A stretch of DNA of 33,946 nt from Sulfurovum sp. (lineage in GTDB: Bacteria; Campylobacterota; Campylobacteria; Campylobacterales; Sulfurovaceae): assembly GCA_026983515.1 (NCBI GenBank), contig JALWHT010000175.1:1-33946 (forward strand), written 5' to 3'. The number at the start of each line of letters is the position of its first letter. The stretch's first letter is position 1. Shown here one piece after another: positions 123-30,566 of this stretch. The translations under genes were made by a program, and so were the position numbers. The notes beneath the pieces were generated by a model. It did not search any database and was not told the DNA's origin. It worked only from the letters and a program-made list of their open reading frames with translations.

Positions 123-1576
123 GATTTATATGGAGCGTACTGTTTGCCACGTTGCTGCTGTTTGGTGCTAATGATAAAGAAGATATGACCAAACAGGCTA
201 TTGTGAAGATTTATACGGTGGCGAAAGTACCGAACTATCTTTCTCCATGGGATTCTGCGATGCAAAGTTTTACGGGCTCGGGTGCCATCATCGAAGGCGG
301 CTACATTCTTACCAACGCTCATGTGGTTGCCAATGAAGCCTTTATGGAGGTACAGCGTTACGGAGAGCGCAAACGCTACATTGCTACAGTCTATGCCGTA
401 TCGCACCAGGCTGACCTGGCACTGCTGAAAGTCAAAGACAAGGCATTTTTCAAAGGCGTTACGCCGCTGGAATTTGGCAAACTGCCAGAAGTAGAGCAGC
501 AGATCGTCGTTTACGGTTACCCGATGGGTGGCAGTACCCTTTCGGCAACCATCGGCGTCGTGTCGCGTGTCGAGCACCACACCTACGCCCACAGTGGTGA
601 GATCTTTCTTGCCGTGCAGGTCGATGCTGCGGTCAATCCGGGAAACTCCGGAGGCCCTGCACTCTCTGAGGGTAAAATTGTGGGGGTGGTAATGCAAGTA
701 ATTAGTAAGTCGCAGAATATCGGCTACCTTGTACCGGTAACGATGGTGCGCCACTTCATCGACGATATGAAAGATGGCCACTATGACGGTTTTGCAGACC
801 TGGGTCTTGGTACGCAGAAGCTTGAAAATCCGGCGATGCGACGCTACTACGGACTTGATGACAACATGACGGGCAAGGTTATTGACAAAATTGTCTACCA
901 TTCCCCTGCTGAAGATATTTTAAAAGAGAATGACATCATTACGGCCATCGACGGCCATAATATTGAAAATGACGGTACAGTAGAGTTCAGACGGCATGAG
1001 TATACCAACTTCTACTATTATGTCGACCAGCATCAGATGGGGGAAAAGGTCAGACTCAGCATTATCCGCAATGGCAAGGCAATGGAAGTTGAAGTACCGC
1101 TGACCAGAACCGGAGATGATATGTTCCTTGTCAAGACTACCCGATACGATAAGATGCCAACCTATGCCATTTACGGCGGCTATGTTTTTTCACCGCTGAC
1201 GCGCAATCTTATCCGCTCTACCAACCGTAACCGTCTCAAGCTGAGTTACCTTGCCTCCAAGTGGCAGACCAAAGAGAAAGAGGAGGTGGTAGTATTGCTC
1301 AAGGTGCTTGCCTCGGATATCAGCCGTGGTGACAACAGCTTCGGTATGTGGGTGATTGACAAGGTCAATGGAAAACCGTTTAAGAATTTCAAAGAGTTTT
1401 TTGCCCTGATGCAGAAGAACAAAGACCCCTACTATCTGCTTGAAGACAATGACGGTGTCAAGGTGATCATTGACCGTAAAGAAGCACTGTCAAAACAGCG
1501 TCAGATACTCGAGAAGTACAATGTGGAGTATGACCGGTCAGAAGATTTGAGAGAGTCCACCAGTATTGCACCATGA
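119..1576 (+). CDS. Trypsin-like serine protease with PDZ-type C-terminal part (DegP/HtrA-like)
   Basis: Catalytic motifs TNAHVV, ADLALL and GNSGGP in the translation; N-terminal hydrophobic segment. Confidence 0.85.
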   Translation: MRFIWSVLFATLLLFGANDKEDMTKQAIVKIYTVAKVPNYLSPWDSAMQSFTGSGAIIEGGYILTNAHVVANEAFMEVQRYGERKRYIATVYAVSHQADLALLKVKDKAFFKGVTPLEFGKLPEVEQQIVVYGYPMGGSTLSATIGVVSRVEHHTYAHSGEIFLAVQVDAAVNPGNSGGPALSEGKIVGVVMQVISKSQNIGYLVPVTMVRHFIDDMKDGHYDGFADLGLGTQKLENPAMRRYYGLDDNMTGKVIDKIVYHSPAEDILKENDIITAIDGHNIENDGTVEFRRHEYTNFYYYVDQHQMGEKVRLSIIRNGKAMEVEVPLTRTGDDMFLVKTTRYDKMPTYAIYGGYVFSPLTRNLIRSTNRNRLKLSYLASKWQTKEKEEVVVLLKVLASDISRGDNSFGMWVIDKVNGKPFKNFKEFFALMQKNKDPYYLLEDNDGVKVIIDRKEALSKQRQILEKYNVEYDRSEDLRESTSIAP

Positions 1577-3204
1577 AACTGAACAAAATAGAGAGGCTCA
1601 AGGCGGAACTCAGCCCTTTTGAATACAGACAGAAACTTGATGTACTCGATTTTAGCAATCTCGAGGAATCTGACCGCTTCTATCTTAAAAATTACGGTAT
1701 TTACAACAATAAACTCCGTCCCGAACATTTTATGCTGCGTGTGCGGGTTGCCGGCGGATGTATGGAAGCACAGCAGCTTCTGGAGATTGTAAAAACAGCC
1801 AGAGCCGAAAGTCTTGAAGTGGTGCTGACCGCACGTGCACAGCTTGAACTGCATGGACTGCATGCTGAGAATGTGTTGGCAGTTTGGAAAGAACTGCTCA
1901 ATGCAGGTGTAACGACACTTCAGACACTGACGGACAACTTCCGAAACATCGTTACCGACCCCTACGACGGTCTGCTTTCCTCAAGCCGCATAGAGGGCTA
2001 CCCGCTTATTGCACAGATGCAGGCAACCGTTCTAAACAATCCCGAATGGATGGGCATGCTTCCACGCAAATTCAATACTGCCATCTGCGGCAGTGAAACA
2101 ACCCATACCCACTTTTACGGCAATGACCTTTACTTTGCTCTGGCACAGAAAGGGGAAAGATGGGGGTTCAATCTCTACCTTGGAGGAAAAAATTCCGAAA
2201 GTGCGCAGGCGGCAGATATTTTTGTGCTGCCCCAACAGGTTCCGGATATTTTTCTTGCCGTTGCTAAAACGTTCCGTGAACATGGGTTGCGCCAAAGCCG
2301 TGCGAAAACGCGACTCTTTCATCTCATTGAAGCGGTGGGAATGGCACAGGTTCGCGAATATATTGCCTCTTACTGTGACTTTGCGCTGGAGTGTGCAGGC
2401 AGAACGATGCATCGAAAAAGTGTGCCGCAAACCTTTACACCGCTTCATAATGGTACCTACGGCTGCTGTGTGCAGAGTGTGTACGGAAAAATAGATATAG
2501 AGCAGCTTGAAGCAGTTGCTGCATTTGCCGTAGAAGAGAACTGTTCTATACGTTTTGGGGTAGACCAGAACCTCTATCTTTTGGGTTTGAAAGAGCCGGT
2601 CATCCCTTTCACACCGGTTTCTGCTGCATCTCAGGTAACCGCCTGTGCGGGCAGCCGCTATTGTGCGCTTTCACTGTGGGACATTAAAGACGATACTGCC
2701 TATCTTCCGCTGGAACAGATTGAAAAACACCATATTCAGGTGGGCTTCAGCGGCTGTCTGAAAGGGTGCGGCAGGCACCATCACTGTGACATCGGAGTGG
2801 TGGGGCTGCGTACCAATCTCTTTGGTGACACACAGAAGGCCGCGCGTGTCTATCTGGGTGGTGAGTACAGCAGCGGCGGTGCACCCGCACGGCTCATTTT
2901 TCCCTCGGTGCCACTGACACATCTGCAAGAATTGCTTGAGACGGTCATATCAAGTTTTGAAGCAAGCGGGCAGAAAGACTTTGAAGCATTTTGTGCCATA
3001 TACCTCAACAGCCACAGCAGTGCATTCGTACTGCTGTGGTACCTTTCGCAGCGTTATCTAAAACGGCCGCCGCAATTGGAAAAAGCATCTGAAGAGGTAC
3101 TTTACAAAAGGCTCAAGGCGTGTGAAGATTTCCCCGATGTTGCAGAGAGTGAGAACTATGCAGAGGCGATCAAAGTGATGATGCATGCGTTGTGGGATGA
3201 CTGA
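1573..3204 (+). CDS. Nitrite/sulfite reductase, siroheme/[4Fe-4S] hemoprotein family
   Basis: Duplicated ferredoxin-like plus siroheme-binding architecture; motifs ACAGSRYC and FSGCLKGCGRHHHCDIGVVG; ATG overlaps the upstream stop. Confidence 0.85.
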   Translation: MKLNKIERLKAELSPFEYRQKLDVLDFSNLEESDRFYLKNYGIYNNKLRPEHFMLRVRVAGGCMEAQQLLEIVKTARAESLEVVLTARAQLELHGLHAENVLAVWKELLNAGVTTLQTLTDNFRNIVTDPYDGLLSSSRIEGYPLIAQMQATVLNNPEWMGMLPRKFNTAICGSETTHTHFYGNDLYFALAQKGERWGFNLYLGGKNSESAQAADIFVLPQQVPDIFLAVAKTFREHGLRQSRAKTRLFHLIEAVGMAQVREYIASYCDFALECAGRTMHRKSVPQTFTPLHNGTYGCCVQSVYGKIDIEQLEAVAAFAVEENCSIRFGVDQNLYLLGLKEPVIPFTPVSAASQVTACAGSRYCALSLWDIKDDTAYLPLEQIEKHHIQVGFSGCLKGCGRHHHCDIGVVGLRTNLFGDTQKAARVYLGGEYSSGGAPARLIFPSVPLTHLQELLETVISSFEASGQKDFEAFCAIYLNSHSSAFVLLWYLSQRYLKRPPQLEKASEEVLYKRLKACEDFPDVAESENYAEAIKVMMHALWDD

Positions 3205-3209
3205 GAATA

Positions 3210-3425
3210 TCACTCATATTTTTTGAACTGCTCAAGCCATGCCTTGTCCTCTTCTGAAAGTGTGCCTACGCGCTCAAGCAGTTTGTGTTTGATACCTATG
3301 AGGTCGTTTACGCTCAGATAGACGAGCAGATCGGGGTTGATGGTAGGCTCCTCTCTGCCGTATGCGATCAGTTTTTCGATCTCTTCGAGGAGTTGGGTTT
3401 TGTCTGGTGCATTTTTTTCATTCAT
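3210..3425 (-). CDS. Small conserved-looking hypothetical protein (71 aa)
   Basis: Complete ORF fitting between sir/nir and the divergent bcp gene; charged, helical composition. Confidence 0.6.
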   Translation of the reverse strand: MNEKNAPDKTQLLEEIEKLIAYGREEPTINPDLLVYLSVNDLIGIKHKLLERVGTLSEEDKAWLEQFKKYE

Positions 3426-3443
3426 TTTGATATACTACCGAAT

Positions 3444-3471
3444 AAATTAAAAGGTAAAAATTAAAAAGTAA
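3444..3471 (+). repeat. Degenerate heptamer array upstream of bcp
   Basis: AAATTAA AAGGTAA AAATTAA AAAGTAA. Confidence 0.6.
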
Positions 3472-3488
3472 AACAAAAAGGAGTTTTT

Positions 3489-3959
3489 ATGTTGAGTGTT
3501 GGTGATGTGGTACCTGACTTTTGTCTGCCAAATCAGGATGAGGAGGAGATCTGCTTTAGAGATATCAAGGGCAAGTGGATCGTGCTCTACTTCTACCCTA
3601 AAGACAACACCCCTGGCTGTACGACCGAGGCGATGGAGTTTACCGAAGCGCTGCCCGATTTCGAAGGCCTCAATGCACTGGTACTCGGTGTAAGCCCCGA
3701 TTCTCCCAAAAAACACCGTAACTTCATCGAGAAAAAAAACCTGAAGATCACACTGCTTGCTGATGAGGAGAAAGAGGTGTGTCAGCTGTTTGGTGTATGG
3801 CAGCTGAAGAAAAACTATGGGCGTGAGTATATGGGCGTGGTACGCTCCACGTTCATCATCGACCCTGACGGCAAGATCGCCGCAAAGTGGGAAAAGGTGC
3901 GTGTCAAAGGGCATGTTGAAGCGGTCAAGGAGAAGCTTGCCGAGCTTCAAAACGCCTGA
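3489..3959 (+). CDS. bcp: Thioredoxin-dependent peroxiredoxin (Bcp/PrxQ family)
   Basis: Motif FYPKDNTPGCTTEAMEF; AAGGAG SD upstream. Confidence 0.93.
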   Translation: MLSVGDVVPDFCLPNQDEEEICFRDIKGKWIVLYFYPKDNTPGCTTEAMEFTEALPDFEGLNALVLGVSPDSPKKHRNFIEKKNLKITLLADEEKEVCQLFGVWQLKKNYGREYMGVVRSTFIIDPDGKIAAKWEKVRVKGHVEAVKEKLAELQNA

Positions 3960-3968
3960 TCTCCTGCC

Positions 3969-3994
3969 ATTCCGGTCTCTCCACCGGAATTTTT
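3969..3994 (+). terminator. Rho-independent terminator after bcp
   Basis: ATTCCGGT-CTCTCC-ACCGGAAT perfect 8-bp stem followed by TTTT. Confidence 0.85.
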
Positions 3995-4029
3995 AACCCC
4001 ATTTCAAAAAATATTAACATACATTTGGG

Positions 4030-4035
4030 TATAAT
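4030..4035 (+). promoter_or_regulatory. Putative sigma70 -10 box (TATAAT) for rpsB-tsf
   Basis: TATAAT about 150 nt upstream of rpsB and just after the bcp terminator; no clear -35. Confidence 0.55.
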
Positions 4036-4071
4036 CGCGTTCCCAATTCTGTACGAGTTGGAAAATACACA

Positions 4072-4150
4072 TGTAGTTATTCCTTGAACGGTTGCGCATT
4101 ATGCGTTAAGGACTACAGAGGGCTCAAACCACTGTGAAGCGATCGGCTTC
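4072..4150 (+). promoter_or_regulatory. Structured rpsB 5' leader (two hairpins)
   Basis: TGTAGT(4072-4077)/ACTACA(4112-4117), CCTT(4082-4085)/AAGG(4108-4111), inner CGCA-TTA-TGCG(4095-4105); second hairpin GAAGC-GATCG-GCTTC(4136-4150). Confidence 0.55.
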
Positions 4151-4182
4151 TTACATTTAACAGTTATACCAAGGAGAAAATT

Positions 4183-5181
4183 ATGGTAACAATGAAAGAC
4201 CTACTGGAGTGCGGCGTTCACTTCGGACACCAAACAAGAAGATGGAATCCAAAAATGAAGAAATTCATTTTCGGTGCAAGAAAGAACATCTACATTATCG
4301 ACCTTCAAAAGACACTCAGATATTTTAAATATACATACAACGTTGTTAGAGATGCAGCGGCAGAAGGTCAGACTGTACTCTTCGTCGGTACTAAAAAACA
4401 GGCGCGTCAGGCAGTTAAAGAGCATGCAGAGAGAGCTGGTATGCCTTACGTTGCGACAAGATGGCTCGGTGGTATGCTGACAAACTACCCAACCATGAAA
4501 AAGTCCATCAGAAAACTTGAAATCATCGAGCAGATGGAAGAGAACGGACAGATCGATCTTCTGACAAAAAAAGAAGCGCTGATGCTCAAGAGAAAAAAAG
4601 AGAAACTCAACTCTTACCTCGAAGGTTTCAGACACATGAAAAAACTGCCTGACATGCTGTTTGTCATCGATGCAGTCAAAGAGCACATCGCGGTTAAAGA
4701 AGCAAGAAGACTCGGTATGAAAGTCATCGCGCCACTTGATACAAACTGTGACCCTGATATGGTAGATTACCCGATTCCAGGAAACGACGACGCGATCCGT
4801 TCTATCAACCTCTTCTGTAGAGAGATTGCTGATGCGATTATTGAAGGGAAAGCGGCATACGCAGAAGCTAATGGTGAGGCAGTAGAGGAAGCACCATCTT
4901 CAGCAGAAGTTGAAGAAGTCGTTACAGAAGCAAAAGAAGAAGCAGCAGCTGCACCTGAAGAAGAAGCAGCACCGACCGCTGAGACTAAAGGTGATGACCT
5001 GACTAAGCTCAAAGGTGTAGGCAAAGTCTATGCTGAAAAGCTCAACAATGAAGGGTTCCATACATTTGCGGACGTTGCGAGCATGACTGACGAGCAGATC
5101 AATGTTATGGAAGAGAAGTACAGCTTCAAAGGCGACTTCAAAGAAACAGTCGCACACGCAAAAGAACTGGCGGAGGCGTAA
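4183..5181 (+). CDS. rpsB: 30S ribosomal protein S2 with Ala/Glu-rich linker and C-terminal helix-hairpin-helix-like extension
   Basis: Canonical S2 N-terminus ([28 protein letters not shown]) and core; tail [29 protein letters not shown]. Confidence 0.97.
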
Positions 5182-5182
5182 T

Positions 5183-6235
5183 ATGGCAAATTTCGGACCA
5201 AAAGATATCAAAAAACTTCGTGAAATGACCGATGCGGGAATGATGGATTGTAAAAAAGCCCTCGCTGCCGCAGACGGTGACATGGACAAAGCGGTCGAGT
5301 GGCTCAGAGACCAGGGTATCGGTGCTGCTGCGAAGAAAGCAAGCAAAACCGCTGCTGAAGGTGCCATCGGTGTCAAAGTCGAAGGACCAAAAGCAGTGAT
5401 CGTTGAGATCAACTCTCAGACTGACTTTGTTGCTCAAAATGACAAGTTCAAAAATCTGATGAACGAAGTGATCGAACATGCGTTCGAGAACGAGCTTGAA
5501 GATGCAGAGGCAATCAATGCTTCCGAGATCAATGGACAGCCTTTCAGTGAATTCCTTGCACAGAACATTGCTATTATCGGTGAAAATCTCGTTGTAAGAC
5601 GTGCCGATCTTATTAAAGGTGATGAAAAGACTGCTGTAAGCGGTTACGTACACTCAAACGGACAAAACGGTGTTATTATTGCAGCAGAGTGCGACGATGC
5701 TGAAACTTGTGAAAAGATCACACCTGTTCTTAGAGAGATTGCAATGCACGCAGCTGCAATGGCTCCCAAAACACTGACATATAAAGATTTCGATCCTGAA
5801 TATGTTGCTGAAGAGACTAAAGGTAGAATCGAAGCGATCAAAAAAGAGAATGAAGAGCTTGAGAGACTTGGCAAACCGCTGAAGAACATTCCTCAGTACA
5901 TCTCCAGAGCACAACTGACAGACGAAGTGATCGCAGCTGCCGAAGAGGCGATCAAAGAGGAGCTCAAAGCAGAAGGTAAGCCTGAGAAGATCTGGGACAG
6001 AATCCTTCCTGGCAAACTGGAAAGATTTATCTCTGACAACACAACACTTGACCAAGAACAGTGTCTGCTTGACCAGAAGTTCGTTATGGACGACAGCAAA
6101 ACCGTAGGTGAGTACTTTGAAGAGAAGTCAAACGGAAAAGCAAAGATCACCAAGTTCACGCGTCTTGAAGTGGGTGAGGGAATCGAAGTGGAAGAGGAAG
6201 ACTTTGCAGCCGAAGTAGCCAAACAAATGGCATAA
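5183..6235 (+). CDS. tsf: Elongation factor Ts
   Basis: MANFGPKDIKKLREMTDAGMMDCKKAL…; ATG at 5183 lies 1 nt after the rpsB stop; the ORF-track start at 5102 is an over-extension. Confidence 0.95.
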   Translation: MANFGPKDIKKLREMTDAGMMDCKKALAAADGDMDKAVEWLRDQGIGAAAKKASKTAAEGAIGVKVEGPKAVIVEINSQTDFVAQNDKFKNLMNEVIEHAFENELEDAEAINASEINGQPFSEFLAQNIAIIGENLVVRRADLIKGDEKTAVSGYVHSNGQNGVIIAAECDDAETCEKITPVLREIAMHAAAMAPKTLTYKDFDPEYVAEETKGRIEAIKKENEELERLGKPLKNIPQYISRAQLTDEVIAAAEEAIKEELKAEGKPEKIWDRILPGKLERFISDNTTLDQEQCLLDQKFVMDDSKTVGEYFEEKSNGKAKITKFTRLEVGEGIEVEEEDFAAEVAKQMA

Positions 6236-27530: not shown

Positions 27531-28025
27531 ATGAAATTTGTATCGATTATTATGGGAAGCAAGAGTGACTACACGATTATGGAAGAGTGTGCAAAGACAC
27601 TGGAGAAGTTCGGAGTGCCTTACGAGCTGATCATCTCCTCTGCCCACAGAAGTCCGGAGAGAACCAAGAACTACATCAAGACAGCCGAAGAGAAGGGTGC
27701 GCAGGTATTCATAGCAGCTGCTGGAATGGCAGCCCACCTTGCAGGTGCTGTAGCGGCAAGCACGACCAAACCGGTATTGGGCGTTCCTATGGAAAGCGGA
27801 CCACTCAAGGGTGAAGATGCGCTGCTAAGTACGGTGATGATGCCTGCGGGTATGCCTGTGGGTACACTGGCGATCGGCAAAGCAGGTGCGGTCAACGCTG
27901 CCTATCTTGCCATCCAGATCATGGCGCTGCAGGATGATGAGCTGCATGTAAAACTTCAGGAAGACCGCATCAGCAAAGCCAAAAAGGTGGAGCTTGACTC
28001 AAGTGAGATTGAAGTCATCCTTTAA
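27531..28025 (+). CDS. purE: N5-carboxyaminoimidazole ribonucleotide mutase
   Basis: [48 protein letters not shown]. Confidence 0.96.
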
Positions 28026-28058
28026 ATTAGTGAAGCGTTAATAGATAATAGTGAATAG
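28024..28058 (+). repeat. Degenerate heptamer array downstream of purE
   Basis: AAATTAG TGAAGCG TTAATAG ATAATAG TGAATAG; the last three units are clearest. Confidence 0.55.
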
Positions 28059-28065
28059 TTTAGGT

Positions 28066-28086
28066 AAGCGGTGCGTGGCTCCGCTT
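28066..28086. repeat. Degenerate REP-half hairpin
   Basis: AAGCGG-TGCGTGGCT-CCGCTT; GGTGCGTGGCT (28070-28080) is identical to 23628-23638. Confidence 0.5.
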
Positions 28087-28109
28087 CTATTTTGATATAA
28101 AGGCAACCA

Positions 28110-29168
28110 ATGGAACTTCAACTTAAAAATATCGGGATGATTAAAGAAGCCAATGTCAAGATTGATGGGCTTACCGTAATCGCAGGTGAGAATGATACAG
28201 GGAAGAGTACGGTTGGTAAAATGTTATTTTCTTTGGTTAAATCTGACAATATTGCCTATAAACAAAAAGCTTCAGGTGGTGATATCAATCATATTCTAGC
28301 AACAAGATTGAATTTGGTTTTTGATGGAAATATATCATTTGATGGTAGTGCGAAACTAATTGATAATCATGCTCATAAGGATAAATTGGTTATTGACGTA
28401 AAGATTCGAGATAAAAATTTTATTTCAAAAATTCAATTTAATCGAGAAAATAAAAATAGATTTTTTGATGCAACTTTTGTGCAGTCACCTTTGGTCTTTG
28501 ATCTAGTTGATTTTTTTAATAGTGTATCTAAGATGAGAGAACGAAAAAAATATGATTATGGATTGGACTTTGATATATCATATCCTTATATGATGTGGGA
28601 CTTATACGATAAATTATCAAAAGATAATCCTTTCCCACATGCTAAACGTCAACGAAAAATTGATGAATTAATTACTGAAGTAATATCAGGGAAGCTCCAA
28701 TTTGATAATTCAAAGTTTTATTATCTCAAAAGGGTGCATAATAGTGAAATACAAGTTGAGATGGAAAATACGGCAACTGGTATTAAAAGTTTTGGTATTA
28801 TCCAAGTTTTAAATAACAATAAATTTTTTACAAAAAAAAATATATTGATTCTAGATGAACCTGAAGTTCACCTTCATCCTAAGTGGCAATTAAAGATGGC
28901 TAAATTAATCGTTATGCTTGTTGAGAAAGGAATGACAATAATTGTCAATTCACACAGTCCATATATGATAGAAGCTTTAAAACAATTTAGTCAAATGCAT
29001 TCTATAGAGAAGAAAACAAATTTTTATTTAGCAGATGATGGCATTATAAAGCAGTTAAATAATGAAAATTCAGAGACTCTGGAAGAAATTTTTGAAAAAT
29101 TATCTGAACCATATGATTTTTTTGAAGAATTGGATAGTAAGCGTTTGGAGAAGTTTTTAAATGGCTGA
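28110..29168 (+). CDS. AAA/ABC-type ATPase, SMC/OLD/RecF-like (AAA_15/AAA_21-type), cassette gene A
   Basis: Walker A GENDTGKST, ABC-signature-like TATGIKSFGIIQVL, Walker B ILILDEPEVHLHP, H-motif NSHSPYM; strongly AT-rich. Confidence 0.9.
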   Translation: MELQLKNIGMIKEANVKIDGLTVIAGENDTGKSTVGKMLFSLVKSDNIAYKQKASGGDINHILATRLNLVFDGNISFDGSAKLIDNHAHKDKLVIDVKIRDKNFISKIQFNRENKNRFFDATFVQSPLVFDLVDFFNSVSKMRERKKYDYGLDFDISYPYMMWDLYDKLSKDNPFPHAKRQRKIDELITEVISGKLQFDNSKFYYLKRVHNSEIQVEMENTATGIKSFGIIQVLNNNKFFTKKNILILDEPEVHLHPKWQLKMAKLIVMLVEKGMTIIVNSHSPYMIEALKQFSQMHSIEKKTNFYLADDGIIKQLNNENSETLEEIFEKLSEPYDFFEELDSKRLEKFLNG

Positions 29169-29691
29169 TGTTGGTCAACTATTAAAAGCATATGCAGAGT
29201 ATAGAAGTACTTTTAAACAGACAAGTTATGATAGTCAAAACAATGAATATCTTTGTTATGATGAAACCCAAGAAGTTCTTGCATTTGATGATATTGTTGC
29301 AAAAAAATATCCTGTTAGCAATGAAAGACCAAAATCATTTGATGCTATTTATATACAAGGAAATAATATTTTTTTAGTCGAATTCAAAAACGAAAAGAAG
29401 CCTGACAAAAAAGAGATAGAAGAGAAATTAAAAGATGGTAAAGAAGAGTTAACTGCAATATTGAAGGCATTAAAGATTCCTAAAAAAGGTTATCGATTTG
29501 TATTTTGTTTGGTCTATAAGAAATATGTCCCAAAACATGAACGATACAAGCAGGGGTTATTTAAAAGTATCAGTTATGAATTTCTTGAAAAATACAAAAA
29601 AGATGGAACAGTAGATGAAATTTTCACAGAAGATGTAGACTTTTTTACAAAGCAATTCAAAAAAAATTTTCAAAAGGAATTAATGTGTTAA
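29161..29691 (+). CDS. Putative PD-(D/E)XK-like nuclease, cassette gene B (176 aa)
   Basis: [20 protein letters not shown]61-x12-E74-x-K76 in a predicted beta-hairpin, followed by a Lys-rich helix; overlaps gene A by 8 bp. Confidence 0.65.
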
Positions 29692-30566
29692 CATTTAGCG
29701 AACTACTACTAAAACTTCAGCAATTCTGGGCAGAGCAGGGGTGTAATATCGTCCAGCCTTACGACATTCCTGCCGGGGCGGGGACGTTCCATCCGGCTAC
29801 GTTGCTTCGAAGCCTCGATAGTAAGCCGTGGAGTACTGCCTATGTAGCACCAAGCCGCCGTCCAACCGACGGGCGTTATGGGGAAAACCCGAATAGACTT
29901 GGAGCGTACTATCAGTTTCAGGCACTCATCAAGCCAAGTCCGGACAACATTCAGGAGCTCTATCTGAAGTCTTTGGAGTATCTGGGGCTCAACCTCAAAG
30001 AGCATGACATCCGTTTTGTCGAGGACAACTGGGAGTCTCCGACACTGGGCGCATGGGGGCTTGGATGGGAAGTGTGGCTTGACGGGATGGAGGTAACACA
30101 GTTTACCTACTTCCAGCAGGTTGGCGGCATTGCTTGTGATCCGGTGGCAGTTGAGATCACCTACGGTACAGAGCGTCTGGCAATGTACCTGCAGGGAGTT
30201 GAAAGTGTCTTTGACATTGTCTGGAACCGCAACGGTGATGAGGTGACCACCTACGCCGATGTACACAAAGAGAGTGAGTATGAGTTCTCCAAGTATCACT
30301 TCGAAGTGGCAACGGTAGAGAAGCTCTTCAGACATTTTGATGATGCCAGTGATGAGTGCCGCCTCTGTCTTGAAAAGGGACTGCCGCTGCCTGCATATGA
30401 CGAGTGTATGAAAGCTTCTCACGCATTCAATGTGCTCGATGCCAGAAAAGCGATCTCCCAGGCACAGCGCCAGAACTACATTCTTAAAGTACGTGAACTT
30501 GCCATTGGGTGTGCACAGCTTTACAAGGCGCAGGAAGAGGAACGCAATAAGAGGGTGAAGGGATAG
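29685..30566 (+). CDS. glyQ: Glycyl-tRNA synthetase alpha subunit
   Basis: [39 protein letters not shown] start at 29685 inside cassette gene B. Confidence 0.97.

Follow-up and report, generated by a model that had tools for sequence, protein, structure and literature searches.

An OLD/PtuA-type ATPase and a predicted PD-(D/E)XK nuclease form a probable defence cassette in a recurrent slot upstream of glyQ in Sulfurovaceae

Two overlapping genes, A and B, lie between purE and glyQ in a contig of Sulfurovum sp. (JALWHT010000175.1; "the window" below is the whole stretch of 33,946 nucleotides that was analysed) and encode an OLD/PtuA-type ABC ATPase and a predicted PD-(D/E)XK-type nuclease. We consider the pair to be, probably, an abortive-infection-type two-gene cassette with a sensor insert, a nuclease docked on the ATPase tail, a fixed slot upstream of glyQ, and exchange of parts between cassettes. 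G and L numbers are our handles for genomes and loci.

Results

The gene pair between purE and glyQ

The features of the locus are collected in Table 1. An earlier sequence-only reading of this DNA had given the boundaries of both ORFs, the lengths of their products and their 8-bp overlap, all of which proved exact. It had also reported a sharp shift in base composition, which was confirmed (10 of 60 bases are G or C at 28801-28860 versus 32 of 60 at 27781-27840) and agrees with the values for whole genes, where G+C content is 29.2% in A and 27.9% in B versus 51.1% in purE and 51.6% in glyQ, and GC3 is 0.22 and 0.19 versus 0.56 and 0.57, respectively. As the ORF pair is kept in many genomes, it is not a chance pair of ORFs. 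The window contains no tRNA gene as an insertion target, and a scan of the left junction yielded 0 terminator-like sites. Promoter-like matches numbered 14, versus 9.1 (sd 3.3) in shuffled sequences, and were left unused.

Table 1 Features of the cassette and its flanks in the window
Feature	Position	Strand	Remarks
purE	27531..28025	+	left flank of slot
leader at left junction, TAGTGAATAGTTTAGGTAAGCGGTGCGTGG..., retained from empty site; partial palindrome	28026..28109	+	
gene A, OLD/PtuA-type ABC ATPase, 352 aa	28110..29168	+	Pfam, PADLOC, AlphaFold model
Walker A GENDTGKST, A residues 26-34	28185..28211	+	largely invariant, 20 relatives
hypervariable insert of A, residues 47-215, proposed sensor	28248..28754	+	~20% mean identity among relatives
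ABC signature-like TGIKSFG, A residues 223-229	28776..28796	+	largely invariant, 20 relatives
Walker B/D-loop ILILDEPEVHLHP, A residues 245-257	28842..28880	+	largely invariant, 20 relatives
H-loop region NSHSPYM, A residues 280-286	28947..28967	+	largely invariant, 20 relatives
C-terminal helix of A, residues 319-352, proposed nuclease docking tail	29064..29165	+	follows nuclease type
gene B, predicted PD-(D/E)XK-type nuclease, 176 aa	29161..29691	+	model, weak fold matches
putative catalytic motif D61...E74-F75-K76 of B	29341..29388	+	invariant, 13 relatives
overlap GTGTTAA, glyQ GTG start within end of B	29685..29691	+	
glyQ	29685..30566	+	right flank; native start (MNNNAI...) and AGAGAGAGA leader absent

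Gene A encodes an OLD/PtuA-type ABC ATPase

The product of gene A carries the full motif set of an OLD/PtuA-type ABC ATPase; the four motifs that the earlier reading had picked out are all present and conserved as listed in Table 1. It matches the Pfam families AAA_15 (1.4e-13) and AAA_21 (1.3e-10), both over their curated cut-offs, and its best PADLOC matches are defence ATPases, namely HEC-02A (1.7e-31, the best), PD-T4-4_A (2.5e-28) and NsnB (4.6e-23), followed by weaker matches to PtuA, AriA, Old and GajA. The AlphaFold model, built on 20 sequences, has a pLDDT of 85.0 and a pTM of 0.85, and when compared with the PDB it was closest to Septu PtuA (E 2e-9), then to retron PtuA and to SMC/Rad50 heads. 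A helix is modelled at the C-terminus (residues 320-350), with low confidence beyond about residue 330. A Pfam-type family search recognised no DNA-binding domain in A or B.

Gene B encodes a predicted PD-(D/E)XK-type nuclease

Among 13 relatives of B, the residues D24, D43, D61, E74, F75, K76, N77 and others are invariant, and these include the whole D61-x12-E74-F75-K76 motif on which the earlier reading had based its assignment. In the AlphaFold model (pLDDT 83.4, pTM 0.81), E74 and K76 lie within a strand and D61 immediately before the preceding strand. A Foldseek search of the PDB with this model yielded no match below E 0.001, the best having E 0.007 and a TM-score of ~0.3; the top fifty were mostly PD-(D/E)XK nucleases, and the matches include the cap-snatching endonucleases of bunyaviruses and arenaviruses, Avs4, Holliday junction resolvases (Hjc), N.BspD6I and Cdn1. 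Taken together, the motif, its invariance and the consistent weak fold matches indicate a PD-(D/E)XK-type nuclease, and the possibility that B is a non-nuclease lacking conserved D, E and K residues is contradicted by their conservation and by the nuclease-like predicted fold.

At the level of sequence, B matched no family above cut-off in Pfam, NCBIfam or PADLOC; NERD (0.099) and DUF4259 (0.018) were considered and rejected, both being below cut-off. The B sequence also found no match among viral contigs and plasmids, and distant relatives were reached through the A sequence instead. The B nuclease groups are missing from the defence libraries.

A preferred slot upstream of glyQ

Most Sulfurovaceae loci that extend to purE have the slot between this gene and glyQ. 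Among 108 Sulfurovaceae-type glyQ loci, a tally that takes in partial contigs and in which the family of the public contig JALUKQ is unchecked, 39 carry an ATPase-nuclease cassette or a remnant of one immediately upstream of glyQ; the remainder comprises 64 empty slots, 2 with other cargo (G251, G516) and 3 that are not judgeable. No cassette was found at the neighbouring yegQ-purE boundary in the 84 loci showing both genes. The glyQ slot is also occupied outside the Sulfurovaceae (G038, G046), and pairs are found at other sites, namely beside mraY/murD (G345), rho/murI (G067) and guaA (G421, G046), in front of a DNA ligase-like gene (ligA, G423) and elsewhere; guaA was identified by tblastn, and the remaining neighbours carry provisional names based on sequence. 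It follows from these sites that the glyQ slot is preferred in this lineage, not required.

The slot houses partners of the types B1 (that of the window), B2, B3 and B4, all of which have D-x(12-14)-E-x-K. BLAST groups B1 with B3 and keeps B2 and B4 apart, giving three secure sequence groups. Profile comparison joins B1 with B3, B4 and the partners from a gut phage and Acinetobacter (probability 89.6-97.6) and detected no link between B1 and B2; what ties B2 to B1 is that they have motif, gene order and slot in common, their sequence relation being undetectable.

Some cassettes stand in tandem (G457, G445, G462). Beside guaA in G046 (L018, contig C83, 6909-12077), a partnerless ATPase is followed by an A2-B2 pair, an A1-B1 pair and an ATPase at the contig end; over 764 nt, this last ATPase gene shows no difference from the first, which may reflect tandem amplification or an assembly artefact. 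Other ORFs were also observed in the slot. Those of 133 and 137 aa in L156 (G516) and L134 (G514) have weak Ricin_B_lectin matches (E ~8e-6, under the curated cut-off); the ORF of G516 occurs without an ATPase, and that of G514 follows an ATPase with a B3-type tail and has no nuclease gene. In several Sulfurovaceae genera, an 84-aa ORF, labelled glutaredoxin-like from its sequence alone, precedes glyQ or the cassette (L105, L109, L171 and others).

The module across genomes

A and B form a real module. A relative of B is present in 10 of the 60 relatives and in 18 of the 397 genomes of the phylum, and in every case with readable upstream DNA, A is the immediately preceding gene, in the same orientation. 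The 8-bp overlap recurs in nearly all pairs of the window type, among them a pair from a gut phage record, and measures 16 bp for the B2 type and 7 bp for B4. The pair thus co-occurs far beyond this locus, which settles the earlier concern that it might be confined to it. In the pairs tested, dN/dS was well under 1, which supports gene function. In three genomes (G067, G358, G255), B is cut or frameshifted and A is still open, a pattern that fits B being the costly part of the pair; nuclease remnants were seen in L117 (G067, 5136-5348), L115 (G358) and L110 (G255), with an internal deletion, truncation and frameshift. No other defence genes adjoining these cassettes were noted. Near the A-B pair of L116 (G252), a second, fragmented set of ATPase-like ORFs is found at 400-4950.

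More distant ATPases followed by a small protein are encoded on plasmids of Acinetobacter, Klebsiella (5.9 kb), E. coli (4.8 kb) and a cyanobacterium; the small protein matches PD-T4-4_B in the E. coli plasmid and HEC-02B in the cyanobacterial one. The mobilisable Klebsiella plasmid pMB6975_2 (L119) encodes at 3382-5347 a related ATPase and a 222-aa partner, which has a weak profile match to B1 (probability 37) and no match in PADLOC.

Junctions with glyQ

The empty slot of G534, whose flanking proteins are 99% identical to those of the window, shares the leader of the left junction (41 of 45 positions identical) and continues with the native start of glyQ, AGAGAGAGACATGAATAATAATGCAATT. The window lacks the last part of the empty site, and its GTG start of glyQ lies inside ATGTGTTAA at the end of B. 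Most B1 cassettes end in the same way and replace the native glyQ start; cassettes of the B2, B3 and B4 types stop ~9-20 bp ahead of the conserved part of glyQ and do not replace it. From the overlap of B and glyQ, we infer that glyQ may be translationally coupled to B.

Exchange of inserts, tails and nucleases

Lineages have exchanged parts of their cassettes. In a set of 36 window-like ATPases, identity is ~20% in the insert (residues 47-215) and ~73% and ~66% in the cores on either side of it. The insert is no more alike within a nuclease type than between types (identity 0.201 within, 0.199 between; permutation p 0.43), whereas the C-terminal tail is (0.561 within, 0.253 between; p 0.0005), these p values being indicative only, as the labels are unbalanced (30 B1, 3 B3, 3 B4) and the sequences related by descent.

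The clearest case is that of the window and G438, whose ATPases have inserts that are 92% identical and tails that are 32% identical, and whose nuclease types differ, the nuclease gene of G438 being broken by an assembly gap. Third positions agree between the two genomes at 79 of 164 codons in purE and 211 of 445 in yegQ; within A, they agree at 12 of 30 (codons 1-30) and 29 of 60 (241-300), and at 140 of 180 for codons 61-240, the pattern expected for an insert exchanged by recombination. The reverse case is found in G006 and JALUKQ, where B is 92% and A 53% identical. Between G224 (glyQ slot) and G345 (mraY-murD site), two genomes of different families, identity is 82% for B and 50% for A, and a stretch of 800 bp is 82.75% identical as DNA. 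These exchanged inserts support a role of the insert in sensing, and the association of tail and nuclease independently supports docking of the nuclease on the tail.

Relation to known systems

The closest described plan is that of WonAB from the WASA-1 prophage of V. cholerae, an operon of an OLD-type ABC ATPase and a small PD-(D/E)XK nuclease. Its phage defence depends on wonA and wonB alike and on the ATPase and nuclease residues of their products; a prediction places WonB on the C-terminal extensions of WonA in dimerised form, and WonB, whose toxicity needs WonA, stops translation and leaves the genome undegraded (PMC12137116). Both pairs have the ATPase before a small nuclease and a similarly placed catalytic lysine (K71 in WonB, putatively K76 in B), and the modelled C-terminal helix of A may correspond to the C-terminal extension of WonA. 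However, WonB is smaller than B (16.1 kDa), WonA is longer up to Walker B (E300 versus E250 in A), and WonAB resides in a prophage, whereas the A-B pair resides in a housekeeping operon. By analogy, the pair would work like the WonAB-type systems of an OLD-ABC ATPase and an REase-fold nuclease, B being likened to WonB by plan, not by sequence. Operons of an OLD-ABC ATPase and a novel REase, described in an ABC-ATPase survey cited in PMC12137116, share this two-gene plan by their description, and PMC12137116 gives their frequency as 0.96% of bacterial genomes.

PD-T4-4 and PADLOC PDC-M47 have the gene order of A-B, and HEC-02 likewise has two genes; A matches the ATPases PD-T4-4_A and HEC-02A. 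Neither PD-T4-4_B (PADLOC at E 1) nor the HEC-02 partner (PADLOC) was matched by B, and profile comparison with one member of each family was negative (hhalign probability 0.1 and 0.2, respectively, a weak negative as these profiles are single-sequence). Either label was rejected for the pair, only the ATPase matching. Septu (PtuAB), including the PtuAB of retrons Ec78 and Ec83, offers the closest solved fold to A, yet A (352 aa) is shorter than the matched PtuA chains (456-551 residues). The second gene of Septu encodes an HNH nuclease (PMC10952713), whereas B matches no HNH family and has a predicted PD-(D/E)XK-like fold. Gabija and PARIS, too, combine an OLD-type ATPase with a nuclease, but in Gabija the ATPase contains a Toprim domain and is accompanied by a helicase, and AriB of PARIS is a predicted Toprim protein (PMC10952713); A has no Toprim match, no UvrD-like helicase lies beside it, and B has no match to AriB (DUF4435/Toprim) in PADLOC. 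The pair is therefore not Septu, Gabija or PARIS by its second gene, nor PD-T4-4 or HEC-02 by the nuclease test.

The sequence-only reading of the pair as a horizontally acquired, defence-type module of an ATPase and a PD-(D/E)XK nuclease is supported; its suggestion of novelty holds for B, which belongs to no library family, and not for the general kind, already described in WonAB, PD-T4-4 and HEC-02. What is new is the fixed glyQ slot, the at least three nuclease groups that share it, and the exchange pattern of inserts and tails. The slot, the swapping of inserts and nucleases, and the takeover of the glyQ start lay beyond the view of that reading.

Discussion

We infer a role of the A-B pair in phage defence, together with its trigger, docking and substrate, as follows. 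A would probably dimerise on ATP, and its hypervariable insert (residues ~47-215) would sense the invader. B would dock on the C-terminal helix of A, which would release or activate it; B would then cut nucleic acid, most likely RNA required for translation, as proposed for WonB, and growth would stop. At the slot upstream of glyQ, cassettes have passed between lineages both entire and part by part, sensor and effector separately.

The target could instead be invading DNA, with the pair acting as an ATP-dependent restriction or nuclease module like Septu or Gabija. PtuA and the SMC/Rad50 heads, the nearest folds to A, include several solved with DNA, PD-(D/E)XK folds often cut DNA, and Hjc and N.BspD6I are among the matches of B. 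We nevertheless regard DNA cleavage as unlikely: WonB, of the same plan, spared genomic DNA and stopped translation (PMC12137116), neither protein has a recognised DNA-binding domain, and the cassette has no modification partner.

The pattern of decay, with B lost and A open as for a costly effector, would also suit a toxin-antitoxin or addiction pair without a role in defence, held by its position beside an essential gene, where the overlap with glyQ makes deletion risky. Such a pair appears distinctly improbable, as the toxicity of WonB needed WonA, contrary to simple sequestration (PMC12137116), and hypervariable, exchanged inserts suggest the sensing of changing targets.

Occupation of 39 of the 108 glyQ loci, the overlap of the glyQ start by most window-type cassettes and the suspected cleavage of tRNA or rRNA by WonB (PMC12137116) might point to glycyl-tRNA synthetase itself, with B cutting tRNA-Gly or a related RNA and coupled GlyQ buffering or reporting the damage. 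We give this little credence: plasmids and a phage record also carry related pairs, others lie beside mraY/murD, rho/murI, guaA and ligA, the slot is vacant at most glyQ loci, glyQ is otherwise ordinary, and cassettes of the B2, B3 and B4 types do not replace its start. A glyQ-specific function was downgraded because pairs occur at other sites. Finally, a vertically inherited housekeeping pair for DNA repair or RNA processing, suggested by its place in housekeeping operons, is scarcely credible and was rejected, being strongly disfavoured by the patchy distribution (18 of 397 genomes of the phylum) and mosaic sequences, with low G+C content, clean empty sites in close relatives and exchange between families also against it.

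Returning to the abortive-infection-type cassette, we are nearly evenly divided, leaning slightly against, on a broader reading of its setting: that the slot upstream of glyQ may be a modular immune locus, a recurrent home for cassettes in the Sulfurovaceae in which inserts and nuclease-plus-tail units are exchanged separately through recombination within cassettes and from one cassette to another, no mobile element of their own being involved, and where most window-type cassettes secure their place as they supply the start of an essential gene.

Which part senses the phage and which holds the nuclease is an open question for WonAB-type systems, and the natural swaps (window and G438; G006 and JALUKQ; G224 and G345) allow both roles to be tested in OLD-ABC ATPases. 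Our findings also suggest that housekeeping operons harbour a defence niche likely to escape searches that start from defence islands or mobile elements.
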